37,688 nt of DNA, from NCBI GenBank assembly GCA_013415565.1, contig JAAEET010000020.1:1-37688 (forward strand). The letters run 5' to 3'. Below the pieces are notes generated by a model. It saw nothing but the letters and a program-made list of their open reading frames with translations, did not search any database and was not told the DNA's origin. The stretch's first letter is position 1. Each line of letters starts with the position of its first letter. Made by a program: the position numbers and the translations under genes. Source of the DNA: Methanomicrobiales archaeon (lineage in GTDB: Archaea; Halobacteriota; Methanomicrobia; Methanomicrobiales; Methanospirillaceae). Shown piece after piece: positions 28,662 to 34,678 of this stretch.

Positions 28662-28795
28662 GAATTCCGGTAGGCGCCCTGCGGGGATTAGCTTTTGGCA
28701 CCTCCGCGCCTGATCGGGTACCGGCTCCTTTCGCGGATATGAATGGGAATGATTATGGTAGGTCTTCGCGCACCGGATTCTGGGCAGGCGATCAG

Positions 28796-30874
28796 ATGGA
28801 GAAGCCAGAGTTGCTGACCGAAGACGAAGGGTACAGGATACTGGCCGGTTTCGGAATCCCGGTACCGGCCTTCGAAGTGGCAACCACCGCAGACGCTGCC
28901 GCGGAGGCGGCAGGACGTATCGGGTACCCGGTGGTGATGAAAGTCGTATCTCCGGGGGTGATCCATAAAAGCGACGTGGGAGGCGTGATCACCGGTATCG
29001 TGGGCGAACAGGAGGTTCGGGACGCATTCGGGCGGATCATGGAACAGGTGGCGGGAGAGCTGCCCGATGCGGATATCACCGGGGTTATCATCGAATCCGA
29101 ACTGCCTCGCGGACTGGAACTTTTCATCGGAGGGAAGACCGATCCTGCGTTCGGCCGGGTTCTTACCTTCGGTCTCGGGGGAACCGCGATCGAGATCTTC
29201 CGCGATTTTTCGCTCCGGGTTCTCCCGGCAGGGGGAGACGAGCTGGCTGCCATGGTCAGGGAGATCAGGGGTTACCCGCTCATCGCCGGATACCGGAATT
29301 CTCCGCCGCTTGACGAGGACGCGCTTCTCCGTTGCCTCGAAGGTGCAGTCGCCCTCTTTGAGGAAGGCACCGGGATCACCGAGTTCGATATTAATCCTCT
29401 CATCCTCTATGAAACCGGTGCATGTGCCGTGGATGCCCGCATCTACCGGTCCAAAGTCCGCCGGGAAGCCCGGAACGAGCGGCAGGAATTTGACCCCCTG
29501 CTCCTTTCGCCGGAATCGATTGCGGTCATCGGCGCATCGGCCGATCCCGGAAAGATCGGATATGCCGTCTTCAGGAACCTCCTCGCCTTTCCCGGAAGAC
29601 TCTATCCGGTGAATCCGTCCCACGATATGGTGCAGGGGAAGAGAGCCTTCGCATCGGTCTCGGAGATTCCGGAACCGGTTGACATGGCGGTTATCGCTGT
29701 CCCGGCCAGACTTGTTCCGGGTATCGTGGAAGAGCTCGGAGCCCGGGGGACGCGCCTCGTCGTGATCATCTCCTCGGGATTCCGGGAGACCGGAGAGCGG
29801 GGTGAGGAACTTGAAAGGGAGATACTGGCGTGCGCACGGAAATCCGGAGTCCGTGTTATCGGTCCGAACTGCCTGGGAGTGGTTCTTCCCCACCAGATGC
29901 TGAATACGACTTTTGATCCGACATCGCCGAGGAAAGGACACATCGCATTCATCTCGCAGAGCGGAGCAATCATCACCACTATTATCGACTGGAGTGTCCC
30001 CGAGGAGATTGGTTTCTCCGCGGTCATCAGTGTCGGTAACCAGCTGGACCTCGATTTCATCGATTTCCTGCGGTTTGCCGCAGGAGACGGTGAGACACGG
30101 GCCGTGATCCTCTACGTCGAGGAGATCCGGGACGGCGCACTGTTTCTCGATACGGTCCGGGAGATCAGCGGAAAAAAACCGGTGATCGTGCTCAAGTCCG
30201 GTTCGTCCGCCATCGGCCGGAGGGCAGCAGCTTCGCATACCGGGTCCCTGGCCGGAGATTTCGAAGTATACCGGGCCGCATTCGTACAGGCCGGGGCAAT
30301 TCCCGTATACTCCCTCCGTGAAGCCTTCGATGTCGCCGAGCTGATGGTGTCCCAGGGCTATCCTGATGGCCCCCGTGCCGTGGTGATCACCACGGCAGGC
30401 GGATTTGCCGTGCTTGCATCCGACTATGCCGAACGATTCGGGGTGGATCTCCCCCCTCTCCCCCCTGCCCTCCTTGAAGCACTCGATTCGTTTCTCCCTC
30501 CGATATGGAACCGGGCAAATCCCATGGATATCATCGGTGACGGGGGTGCCGAGCGGTTTGCCCGGGTACTCGATACTCTCGTCCGGCACGAGGATGTATT
30601 TGATATCGCCGTCGTCATCGCCGTACCTTCCGCTGTGCTCGATCCAACCCTGCTCGCCCAGGAGATCGCACGGTTTTCGCAGAATACCAAGATGATGGTG
30701 ATCGGCTGCCTGCTCGGTGGTGATACCATGAAGGGCGGTATGCGGGTTCTCCGCCATCACCGGATACCCAATTATGAGGATATCGAGAGTGCCTTCCGGG
30801 CTGCCGGACGCAGTATCAGGGCATCAGGCCACGGAAAGGCCAAGCAGGACCGGGATCCCGGATTATCCGGATGA
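28796..30874 (+). CDS. ADP-forming acetate/acyl-CoA synthetase, fused beta-alpha order
   Basis: ATP-grasp part MEKPELLTEDEGYRILAGFGIPVP...GYPVVMKVVSPGVIHKSDVGGV. CoA-ligase part SIAVIGASADPGKIGYAVFRNLL...GPNCLGV, SQSGAIITTIIDW, SHTGSLAG. Confidence 0.9.
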   Translation: MEKPELLTEDEGYRILAGFGIPVPAFEVATTADAAAEAAGRIGYPVVMKVVSPGVIHKSDVGGVITGIVGEQEVRDAFGRIMEQVAGELPDADITGVIIESELPRGLELFIGGKTDPAFGRVLTFGLGGTAIEIFRDFSLRVLPAGGDELAAMVREIRGYPLIAGYRNSPPLDEDALLRCLEGAVALFEEGTGITEFDINPLILYETGACAVDARIYRSKVRREARNERQEFDPLLLSPESIAVIGASADPGKIGYAVFRNLLAFPGRLYPVNPSHDMVQGKRAFASVSEIPEPVDMAVIAVPARLVPGIVEELGARGTRLVVIISSGFRETGERGEELEREILACARKSGVRVIGPNCLGVVLPHQMLNTTFDPTSPRKGHIAFISQSGAIITTIIDWSVPEEIGFSAVISVGNQLDLDFIDFLRFAAGDGETRAVILYVEEIRDGALFLDTVREISGKKPVIVLKSGSSAIGRRAAASHTGSLAGDFEVYRAAFVQAGAIPVYSLREAFDVAELMVSQGYPDGPRAVVITTAGGFAVLASDYAERFGVDLPPLPPALLEALDSFLPPIWNRANPMDIIGDGGAERFARVLDTLVRHEDVFDIAVVIAVPSAVLDPTLLAQEIARFSQNTKMMVIGCLLGGDTMKGGMRVLRHHRIPNYEDIESAFRAAGRSIRASGHGKAKQDRDPGLSG

Positions 30875-31226
30875 CCTGCCCGGCAGGTTCAACCGTGCGG
30901 TTCAATCATTGTCATACTCGTTCCGGGTGGTCAACCGGGGTTATGGATTCATTTAATGAACCCGAACCTCCAGATGAGGTTCTGGTGGAGCATGCCGTTG
31001 CACCCGGGGATCTTCGTGCGATAATCGGCAGGGAAGGGAGATGTTCAACCCGGGCGGCACTCCACAGCACCGGGGACTGCCGCATGCGGCGTCCCTCGTA
31101 TCACCGCTTCATCCAATGCAGCACCAATTCCGAACTGCTCGGGGAAGAGTCGTGTGGCGGGAAACCGGGATTCGGGGTTTTCTTCCGGTTTCCGCGGCTG
31201 CTCTTCCCGACTCCGTATTCATGTTC

Positions 31227-33782
31227 TCACGGCAGATCGTCTTCAAATACTTCGTAGCCGCCTGACTCCAGCTGCTGTGAGATGAACCGGTCAATCGCCG
31301 CAATCAGGTCCTCTGCCCGCTGGAACCGCTGATCCTTGTTTTTCTCAAGGCAGCGTCCGACGACTTCATCAAGGGGGGAGCTGCCCGGGACCTTTGCCGA
31401 AGGAAGCGGCGGGTTCTCACCGATGATCCGCCCGGTGACCTGGGAGATATCCTCTCCGGCGAAGGGTAGCTCGCCGGTCAGCAGCTCGTAGAAGACCACA
31501 CCAAGCTGGTAGATGTCCGTCCGCTGATCGGTATCACCGAATCTGTCCGGAGAAATCTGTTCAGGTGCTGCATACGAGAGGGAAAATCCGGTGATGGTGT
31601 GGGGGAGGTACGCACCCATTACCTTGCTCATTCCCCAGTCGGTGATTTTCGGGACCATGTCGTCGGTGATAAGAATATTCTGCGGTTTGATGTCCCGGTG
31701 AATGATCCCCTGTGAATGAGCATACGCGAGCCCTTTCGCTATTCCCCGCACAATCCGGGCGGCTTCTTCAGGAGGGAGCGGCTTTTCCATGTCGGCAAGC
31801 GATCGCCTGATATACTCCATCTCCACGTAGGGAACCGGCAGAATGTTCACTTCGTGAATATTGACGATATTCTCGTGGTTGAGATCCTCCCAGGCTTTGA
31901 TCTCTTTCATGAAGCATTTTCCTGCGGTTTCATTGAACTGGACCGGTATCTTCAGAGCCACACTCTCTCCCGTGCCGGTGTTCTCTGCACGGAACACCCG
32001 GGCGATACCCCCCACCCCGATCAGTTCAGGACCGGCATACTTCTCGAAGAGCTCGGTCGGAAACGAGGAAGGGGTCGTCGGCGTGGTCCGGGACGGGATA
32101 AAGGTCGCATGGGGACCGGTATCGCTTACCGGCCCGGCCGGAGCCTCAGGAGGTTCCCCGCCACTGGAGGTGAGGGAGACATACTCCCAGCGTGCTCCGA
32201 AACCGCCGACGAGTGCCGCCCCGAAGCAGATCAGGATCGGAATCCTGAGATCGGGGGATGAACCGATTACGGCGAGGGCGGCCGTGAAGGCAGCGATCAG
32301 CGATATCAGGATATGCCCGCTGAGGGTCCATTTCAGCGGGTGGGAGAGGAGGGTTCCCGCGAAAAGGGCAAGACCCGAGATCAGCAGATACCCTGATACC
32401 GGGATCAGGATACTGATGAAGGGAGGGATGTCCTGCACACCCTGCAGCTCACGGGAAAATAACAGGAGCGCCCCAATCAGGCCACCGATGACTGCCAGGT
32501 ATGCCAGGAACAGGAAAGCCCTCCGGGATAGCGGTATCGATGATCCCGGTGGCTGTTGCGAGAAGAGGTCGACCATCACAAGGCCAGCACAGAGCCCCCC
32601 CATCAGCATGAGCGCGGAAATACCGCTCATCCCGCGAATCCAGGGAGGGAGAACGGGACCGGTGATATTCCCTCCACCGGTCGGGACGGTGGTGGAAACC
32701 GATGTCACCATTGGCGTGGTTGCCGTGGTGGTGAAGGACGGAGACGTTCTTGTTGTCCACGTGGTGACCGTCTGCGTTGTAGGCGACGTGGTCGGAATCG
32801 TGGTCACGAGGGTAGTTCCAGTCGTGACGGGGGATGTGGTGGGGGTTGTTGTAGGCTGGGTCGTTGCGGTGGTGGTGGGGATAGTCGTTCCCGTCGTTGT
32901 CGGCACCGTTGTCACGGTGGTCGAGACCGTGGTGGTGGGTTTGGTCGTTGCCGTGGTGGTCGGAACGGTAGTGGTGGGAGAGGTGGTCGGAACGGTAGTG
33001 GTGGGAGAGGTGGTCGGGACCGTGGTGGTGGGTAGGGTCGTTGCCGTGGTGGTCGAAGTGGTCGGGACCGTAGTGGTCGGAACGGTAGTGGTGGGAGAAG
33101 TGGTCGGGACCGTAGTGGTCGGAACGGTAGTGGTGGGAGAGGTGGTCGGGACCGTGGTGGTGGGAACGGTAGTGGTGGGAGAAGTGGTCGGGACCGTGGT
33201 GGTGGGAACGGTAGTGGTGGGAGAAGTGGTCGGGACCGTGGTGGTGGGGGTTGCTACCGGGATGAGCCTGATGAGGGAGATGACCGTGGTCCCCCCTTCG
33301 TTCACCTGTACCTGCTGGTTCCAGACTTCGTACCCTTCCAGCCGGAGCTCGATTGCCCGCATTCCCGTCGGGACATTCTCAATGACCAGGGGTCCCTGGA
33401 CCCGGGTCTTTCCCGCATAAGACCCGTCGATGTATACCGATGCTCCCGGAGGCTGCGATTCTACCGAGATCGATCCGGTGAGCCTGACAAAGATTGCAGA
33501 TATGGTGTGATCGGCTGCAACCGAATAGAACGTGTAGACCTGGACAGGACCGACGGGATTACCGTCGACATATGCCATACCGATCCTGTACCCGTCGTCC
33601 GGTGTGATGGCAAATATCTGCGTGCCGCCTTCCCTGACCCAGAACTCCCCCGAGGGAATGATGGACCCGCCCGGTCCGGCAGTTGCAGCAATAATGTAGT
33701 AGTCCTTGACTGCTGCCACGGAACCCGCCACTCCTGCGAGGAGGATACATCCGATCAGGAACCAGGTCAGGCGGGTGTTCAT
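31227..33782 (-). CDS. Membrane Ser/Thr protein kinase with extracytoplasmic InlB-like repeat and PEGA domains
   Basis: Signal peptide; AATAGPGGSIIPSGEFWVREGGTQIFAITPDDGYRI..AYVDG; PEGA SISVESQPPGASVYIDGSYAGKT; Thr/Pro/Val linker; about five TM helices; kinase motifs GVGGIARVF, VALKI, HRDIKPQNILI, DWG, YAAPEQ, DIYQLGVVFYELLTG. Confidence 0.92.
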   Translation of the reverse strand: MNTRLTWFLIGCILLAGVAGSVAAVKDYYIIAATAGPGGSIIPSGEFWVREGGTQIFAITPDDGYRIGMAYVDGNPVGPVQVYTFYSVAADHTISAIFVRLTGSISVESQPPGASVYIDGSYAGKTRVQGPLVIENVPTGMRAIELRLEGYEVWNQQVQVNEGGTTVISLIRLIPVATPTTTVPTTSPTTTVPTTTVPTTSPTTTVPTTTVPTTSPTTTVPTTTVPTTSPTTTVPTTTVPTTSTTTATTLPTTTVPTTSPTTTVPTTSPTTTVPTTTATTKPTTTVSTTVTTVPTTTGTTIPTTTATTQPTTTPTTSPVTTGTTLVTTIPTTSPTTQTVTTWTTRTSPSFTTTATTPMVTSVSTTVPTGGGNITGPVLPPWIRGMSGISALMLMGGLCAGLVMVDLFSQQPPGSSIPLSRRAFLFLAYLAVIGGLIGALLLFSRELQGVQDIPPFISILIPVSGYLLISGLALFAGTLLSHPLKWTLSGHILISLIAAFTAALAVIGSSPDLRIPILICFGAALVGGFGARWEYVSLTSSGGEPPEAPAGPVSDTGPHATFIPSRTTPTTPSSFPTELFEKYAGPELIGVGGIARVFRAENTGTGESVALKIPVQFNETAGKCFMKEIKAWEDLNHENIVNIHEVNILPVPYVEMEYIRRSLADMEKPLPPEEAARIVRGIAKGLAYAHSQGIIHRDIKPQNILITDDMVPKITDWGMSKVMGAYLPHTITGFSLSYAAPEQISPDRFGDTDQRTDIYQLGVVFYELLTGELPFAGEDISQVTGRIIGENPPLPSAKVPGSSPLDEVVGRCLEKNKDQRFQRAEDLIAAIDRFISQQLESGGYEVFEDDLP
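32980..33245 (-). repeat. Tandem repeat array, about 42-bp unit, encoding the (TVPTTTVPTTSPTT)n linker of the kinase
   Basis: Repeated ggaacggtagtggtgggaga(a/g)gtggtcgggaccgt(a/g)gtggt(g/c) blocks on the plus strand. Confidence 0.8.
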
Positions 33783-33805
33783 GGCAGGGACCGGTAGGGT
33801 GGTGA

Positions 33806-34585
33806 TCAGGGGAGAATGACGAGGAGTCGTGCTCCATGGGCTCCTTTCCCGAGTTCGAGGAGGTCACCGTCATGGAGCACGGCAGGTTGTCTCTTCTGCA
33901 ACTCGGTGCTGTTGAGGTAGGATCCGCCGCTGCTCCCCCTATCTTCGAAATAGTAGTTCTGTCCTTCTTTCCTGAAGATACCATGGGGCTTTGAAACACG
34001 GCTGACGGAGGAGTATTCTTTGGAGAGGATAATGTCGGATGCCAGGTCGGCAGATTCGGGACGGGACGGGTCGATACGCCCGACCCGGGTGTCCGCCTTC
34101 TCGAGGATGAAGAGTTTTCCATCATCAGTGCCCCCGAGAAGTATCACCATCGGTTTCTTTCCGGCGATCTCTCCTTCCACGGCTTCCCGGACTTCATCGA
34201 GCCTCTTCTTCAGATCGGCATCATCGATGTTGATGCGCATGTTCGAGAAGATGCCGAGATTCCGGACCACCGCCTCCATGGCGCCGGGAACAAGCGAGTA
34301 TTTCCAGACCGGGTGCACCCCTTTGGAGGTCTGCTGGCCGAGGCCCACCTCCTTCCGGATCAGCCCCATCCCGATCAGCTTGTCCAGGTGCTTCTTGGTA
34401 TTCTCGTAGCTGGTATTGATCTCCGATGCGATCATCCTGACATCCTTCGGCCGTTTCTCAAGGATCTTCAGGATCTTGAGGCGCTGGCTGTTGGAGAGTA
34501 CTTCGAGGTACTCCGAAAGTTCGTTGAAATAATCAGGCACCTGCTCGAGTACAACCGTTCGTGCTTCTTCCTGATGCTCCGGCAT
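33806..34585 (-). CDS. Winged-helix (ArsR-like) regulator with C-terminal FHA domain
   Basis: wHTH: YLEVLSNSQRLKILKILEKRPKDVRMIASEINTSYENTKKHLDKLIGMGLIRKE. FHA-like: ADTRVGRIDP...SDIILSKEYSSVSRVSKPHGIFRKEGQNYYFEDRGSSGGSYLNSTEL. GGAGGGAGGACC upstream of ATG 34585. Confidence 0.85.
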   Translation of the reverse strand: MPEHQEEARTVVLEQVPDYFNELSEYLEVLSNSQRLKILKILEKRPKDVRMIASEINTSYENTKKHLDKLIGMGLIRKEVGLGQQTSKGVHPVWKYSLVPGAMEAVVRNLGIFSNMRINIDDADLKKRLDEVREAVEGEIAGKKPMVILLGGTDDGKLFILEKADTRVGRIDPSRPESADLASDIILSKEYSSVSRVSKPHGIFRKEGQNYYFEDRGSSGGSYLNSTELQKRQPAVLHDGDLLELGKGAHGARLLVILP

Positions 34586-34658
34586 CCCTGGTCCTCCCTC
34601 CTGTATAAAAAATCGACCTGATGCAACAAAAACATTCTCTGATCGACGGGATTCAATG

Positions 34659-34678
34659 ATTGAACCTTCCGGTTCAAT
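34659..34678. promoter_or_regulatory. 20-bp perfect dyad ATTGAACC-TTCC-GGTTCAAT upstream of the wHTH-FHA gene
   Basis: 8-bp arms, 4-nt centre; 74 bp from ATG 34585 and 82 bp from the divergent EndoV-like gene. Confidence 0.55.

Follow-up and report, generated by a model that had tools for sequence, protein, structure and literature searches.

A conserved transmembrane kinase and wHTH-FHA regulator gene pair in Methanomicrobiales, a candidate phosphothreonine relay from cell surface to promoter

We analyzed a stretch of 37,688 nucleotides from a Methanomicrobiales archaeon (the window, meaning this whole stretch). On its minus strand, a gene for a regulator combining a winged helix-turn-helix (wHTH) with an FHA domain is followed, after a gap of 23 bp, by the gene for a transmembrane Hanks-type kinase (Table 1). 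The regulator start codon is an ATG preceded by GGAGG. Hydropathy supported a signal segment at residues 7-25 of the kinase, and from the same hydropathy we infer that residues 26-387 lie outside the cell and the kinase domain inside. The catalytic residues K, HRD and APE are all present, the DFG motif reads DWG, and a pattern search recovered the same motifs in most homologues. By its Pkinase domain together with Lys, HRD and DxG, the protein qualifies as a Hanks-type (eukaryotic-like) kinase; that it phosphorylates Ser or Thr is inferred.

The original prediction, which had been made from sequence alone, was exact in its gene coordinates, strand and 23-bp spacing. Its wHTH-FHA and PEGA/kinase domain calls were upheld by Pfam, its signal peptide and about five TM helices by hydropathy, and the K, HRD and APE motifs it listed were found. 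The InlB-like repeat that it placed in the kinase held only in part, since the sole match was sub-threshold (PF18998, E 0.021).

Table 1. Features of the kinase/regulator locus, in positions of the window.
Feature	Position	Strand	Details
wHTH-FHA transcription regulator	33806..34585	-	259 aa; Pfam FHA 1.8e-10, HTH_5/ArsR 1.3e-7
Codon of Thr10, proposed phosphoacceptor	34556..34558	-	invariant Thr in variable N-terminal tail predicted to be disordered
ArsR-type winged helix-turn-helix of regulator	34292..34537	-	aa 17-98
FHA domain of regulator	33815..34150	-	aa 146-257
Transmembrane Hanks-type Ser/Thr kinase	31227..33782	-	851 aa; Pfam Pkinase 2.3e-42 (aa 586-821)
PEGA domain of kinase, extracellular by prediction	33276..33476	-	aa 103-169; Pfam E 3.3e-14
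Five predicted TM segments of kinase	32193..32621	-	within aa 388-530; hydropathy
Cytosolic kinase domain	31320..32027	-	AxK, HRDxKxxN, DWG, APE
Palindrome TTGAACC-GGAA-GGTTCAA, proposed operator of the regulator's own gene	34660..34677		sole 0-mismatch match in genome
Conserved AGAATRTTTTTGTT element, likely BRE/TATA promoter region	34625..34638	-	seen by eye in relatives' upstream sequences; assignment inferred
Second palindrome, 1 mismatch	30888..30905		between convergent acyl-CoA ligase and kinase genes

The FHA call rests on a PF00498 match of 41.5 bits against a cut-off of 20.7. An AlphaFold2 model of the regulator predicted that a helical linker connects a wHTH to an FHA fold, and a Foldseek search with this model was led by the FHA domains of GarA and OdhI (GarA E 6e-8); the two methods agree with the earlier claim that this region folds as an FHA domain. 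Among solved structures GarA was the best match by both sequence and fold; OdhI came nearly as close by fold, and EmbR was also among the fold matches. In the FHA pocket Arg170 and His201 are invariant and position 198 is always Ser or Thr. The canonical FHA Asn (the Asn of NG) is replaced by Gly220 in 54 of 57 family members, so the binding mode may differ from the canonical one.

The residue corresponding to Thr10 is a Thr in every regulator homologue that we scored, 60/60 in one set and 80/80 in another. Homologue starts were chosen by script, which does not affect the count, because the Thr was scored by how far it lies from the conserved LSEYL; the search anchor differs in one homologue (L297), whose Thr was read by eye. 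First-pass starts excluded the residue from two others (L047 and L056), which carry it once the starts are corrected. The tail around it varies in length and sequence, with the positions just around Thr10 only 16-44% conserved, and the Thr keeps a fixed distance from the start of the helix. In nearly all homologues it is followed by I, V or L. Model confidence is low there (pLDDT below 50 over residues 1-16), which fits a disordered tail. An FHA protein that has an invariant Thr in such a tail and a Ser/Thr kinase gene next to its own matches, by analogy, the arrangement of a GarA/OdhI-like switch; both the phosphorylation and the binding of phosphorylated Thr10 by the FHA domain are inferred.

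Regulator homologues were present in 135 of 199 Methanomicrobiales genomes, and a phylum-wide sample yielded no full-length homologue outside this order. The kinase was close to the regulator in 59 of 60 fetched loci, the remaining locus being cut by a contig end; it lay downstream on the same strand in 57 of the 60 and on the opposite strand in 2. A second collection, drawn from named records, gave 72/72 among loci with room to be scored; it overlaps the first, and the two counts are therefore not independent. The adjacency is thus conserved across the order, as the original prediction had required. The genome under study (1.69 Mb, 93% complete) has the regulator as its sole FHA protein, the paired kinase as its sole Hanks kinase above the Pfam cut-off, and a single PP2C phosphatase.

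Kinase and regulator occur and vanish together. A full kinase was found in 16 of 17 genomes with the regulator versus 3 of 28 without it (Fisher p 2e-8, relatedness not removed), and the Mantel correlation for the pair was r 0.77, from which shared species history was not removed. In one Methanoculleus genome (G063), the regulator, the kinase and one neighboring gene are missing in a single clean deletion relative to a close relative (G072), to which the flanks are 97-98% identical.

A PP2C gene was found near the pair in 12 of the 60 loci, directly adjoining it in several, and these loci include two genera of the window's own family. At one locus (L068, genome G047) the PP2C gene is flanked by two wHTH-FHA genes, with the kinase next to them. 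Two others (L080 and L081, genomes G159 and G097) have a second paralogue of the wHTH-FHA gene; there the kinase lies on the opposite strand, and an inverted form of the palindrome (CCGGTTCAGNCCTGAACCGG) is found upstream.

Upstream of the regulator gene lies the palindrome TTGAACC-N4-GGTTCAA, 74 bp before the start codon, with the AGAATRTTTTTGTT element falling between the two. Several relatives, and a member of another genus (L073), have a related palindrome ahead of their regulator orthologue. Across 628 kb of module loci we counted 16 sites where 0.30 were expected, with none in the control, an enrichment of about 50-fold over the genome-wide rate; the expectation assumes a mean genome size of 2.2 Mb. 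The palindrome was first spotted by eye at this locus, so only the counts from other genomes are independent. Within Methanoculleus, sites were present in 24 of 26 regulator-bearing genomes and in 2 of the 9 that lack it. The unchanging palindrome is consistent with the invariant NTKKH (N62-T63-K64-K65-H66) in helix 60-72 of the regulator; that the regulator binds this palindrome is inferred.

The second palindrome is the only one-mismatch match in this genome and occupies the same place in two relatives (L035 and L037). It has no recognised target gene. The ADP-forming acyl-CoA ligase gene (28739-30874, plus strand) converges with the kinase gene, and the palindrome begins 14 bp past its stop codon. 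An alignment with relatives gave no convincing small gene in the convergent region at 30905-31226.

Sites and regulator do not coincide everywhere. One genome that is 95% complete (G100) has three exact sites and no regulator. G063, which at first looked like a counter-example, also keeps its sites despite having lost the pair; because its flanks are still nearly identical to those of its relative, the deletion must be recent and undecayed sites are not decisive. Conversely, G004, G010 and many genomes of a Methanoregula-like genus (g4) have the regulator and no site at one mismatch or fewer, and a palindrome close upstream is missing from most of the 60 regulator genes.

Elsewhere, sites are frequently found 50-140 bp ahead of genes for small proteins that begin with a signal-peptide-like segment. 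Under strict criteria, 19 of 41 sites had a signal-peptide-like ORF 40-160 bp away compared with 3.4% of random positions, many of the 41 being orthologous repeats. When targets were grouped manually, which added groups that the strict filter had missed, 8 of 12 groups were secreted against a background of 20% (p 6e-4). One target, a small signal-peptide-like protein encoded between mutL and phrB, is found in this genome too, where its site (C6:43294) is a symmetrical variant of the palindrome with two mismatches. Other site-linked targets are a 148-aa protein, a DUF11 protein and a signal-peptide-like protein of Methanoculleus, whose site abuts a TATA-like TTGTATAAA.

One class of Methanoculleus sites (class C) precedes a conserved hairpin located downstream of the site between convergent genes. 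The hairpin, GTGGAYGGGG-TTYG-CCCC-CCAC, is at L147:2145-2245 and has equivalents in L146, L152, L153, L157 and L163. It shows little covariation. It may be a small RNA, a suggestion that we offer as a lead only; a search of Rfam found no family in the class B and class C site loci, and within the window only two tRNAs.

We made several further observations around individual sites. In six Methanoculleus loci (L144, L149, L151, L155, L160 and L162) the site coincides with the 3' end of a TfuA-like gene, or follows it closely, in an apparent YcaO-TfuA pair, names that were assigned by eye and not by Pfam. About 96-98 bp downstream of the site in the first of these, and of a different site in L161, begins a small secreted protein that contains Cys. 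In L041 and L044 a response-regulator-like gene, Pfam-confirmed in L044, starts less than about 130 bp from a site located after the kinase gene.

Our preferred reading, which the evidence favors by a modest margin, is that the pair forms a phospho-relay of one kinase and one regulator, running from the cell surface to promoters by way of Thr10, the FHA domain and the palindrome. The PEGA-bearing outer part of the kinase would sense the state of the envelope or the extracellular surroundings and control the cytosolic kinase domain, which would phosphorylate Thr10 in the flexible tail of the regulator. The FHA domain would then bind phosphorylated Thr10, in cis or across a dimer, and so change the binding of the ArsR-type winged-helix dimer to TTGAACC-N4-GGTTCAA. 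The PP2C phosphatase would reset the switch, and the regulator would control its own operon together with genes for small secreted or envelope proteins. With the sites placed immediately before the TATA region, we think an activator more likely than a repressor, although this is a guess from site position. The signal and the direction of regulation, like the phosphorylation and both binding steps, are inferred without biochemistry.

A pathway leading from a surface kinase to a promoter was the central claim of the original prediction. It is supported as the best reading because of the invariant Thr10, the co-loss, the PP2C neighbors, and the conserved palindrome, which stands in front of the regulator gene and also of genes for secreted proteins; phosphorylation and the binding of phosphopeptide and DNA remain inferences. 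A bolder version, which we consider as likely to be wrong as right, is an order-wide, one-step phosphothreonine relay that switches a small secreted or envelope regulon, possibly including a small RNA. If true, it would be an archaeal counterpart of the two-component system made of Ser/Thr signaling parts.

Three other explanations were considered. The first is docking as in EmbR/PknH, in which the FHA domain binds phosphothreonines of the kinase, in its juxtamembrane segment or activation loop; the regulator would be recruited to the membrane and phosphorylated elsewhere or held off DNA, and Thr10 would have a different role. In its favor, EmbR needs its FHA domain both to interact with PknH and to be phosphorylated (reviewed in PMC4601284), and the juxtamembrane segment and activation loop of the kinase described here contain Thr residues. 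We consider docking unlikely as the full account, since it leaves unexplained why an otherwise variable, disordered tail keeps one Thr without exception. It is nevertheless compatible with the Thr10 switch, and both could act.

The second is that some other regulator uses the palindrome, with the kinase/wHTH-FHA pair acting on different genes or in a different process. The exact sites remaining without the pair in G100 and G063, and the many g4 genomes with the pair and no close sites, speak for it. Against it are the enrichment of the palindrome around the module, its position at the promoter of the regulator gene in at least two genera, the way in which sites follow the presence or absence of the regulator in Methanoculleus, and the match of invariant HTH residues to an unchanged site, and we regard it as improbable. 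The third, that kinase and regulator are merely conserved side by side with no functional link, has in its favor that no experiment connects them and is very unlikely given the pairing across paralogues and genera, the co-loss, the Mantel correlation (with its caveat of species history) and the PP2C linkage; chance neighborhood was likewise rejected on conserved pairing, co-loss and the invariant Thr10.

The signal or target is known for only a few Ser/Thr kinases of archaea. The phospho-relay that we prefer proposes a kinase, an acceptor residue, a reader domain, a phosphatase and a DNA site in one module, and does so in methanogens, about whose regulation little is known. If it is correct, the palindrome serves as a search motif for the regulon.

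A search for an archaeal wHTH-FHA/kinase pair in a body of literature that lacked most subscription papers returned only the Arn system of Sulfolobus and unrelated papers, and no report of the pair described here. There an FHA protein of the ArnA/ArnB system is phosphorylated by Hanks-type kinases (ArnC/ArnD), with effects on transcription (PMC6509490, PMC13286277, PMC10470591). ArnA has an FHA domain, a zinc finger and a vWA partner and lacks a wHTH, whereas the regulator described here has a wHTH and no zinc finger match in Pfam, and is not of the ArnA type.

By PDB fold and sequence, the nearest relatives of the regulator FHA domain are GarA and OdhI of Actinobacteria (6I2P, 2KFU, 2KB3). 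GarA binds its own phosphothreonine with its own FHA domain (PMC5448819). Unlike the regulator with its wHTH, GarA and OdhI lack a DNA-binding domain and have metabolic enzymes as their targets; the residues flanking the Thr are also different, and against the OdhI model NF041660 the regulator scored 25.7 bits, below the cut-off of 200. The regulator is therefore not a member of the GarA/OdhI type.

The closest known pair is PknH/EmbR of Mycobacterium tuberculosis (structures 2FEZ and 2FF4), in which the DNA-binding domain is of a different kind; the original prediction had noted in general that Hanks-type kinase/FHA pairs are established in bacteria. PknH phosphorylates EmbR, which increases EmbR binding to DNA at cell-wall genes, and the phosphatase MstP reverses this (PMC4601284). 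Both pairs consist of a Hanks kinase and an FHA-containing DNA-binding regulator. The DNA-binding domain of EmbR, a SARP-family protein, is of the OmpR type and is accompanied by a BTA domain, whereas the archaeal regulator carries an ArsR-type wHTH and a helical linker; Pfam found no BTA domain in it and the ArsR HTH_5 instead, so it is not a member of the EmbR family. The archaeal pair further differs in its invariant N-terminal Thr, its PEGA-bearing kinase and its hosts. By analogy, then, it would resemble PknH/EmbR in its working without belonging to the same family, and the proposed surface-to-promoter phosphothreonine pathway, if true, would run parallel to PknH/EmbR. We regard the pair as an archaeal variant of the known kinase/FHA-regulator principle.
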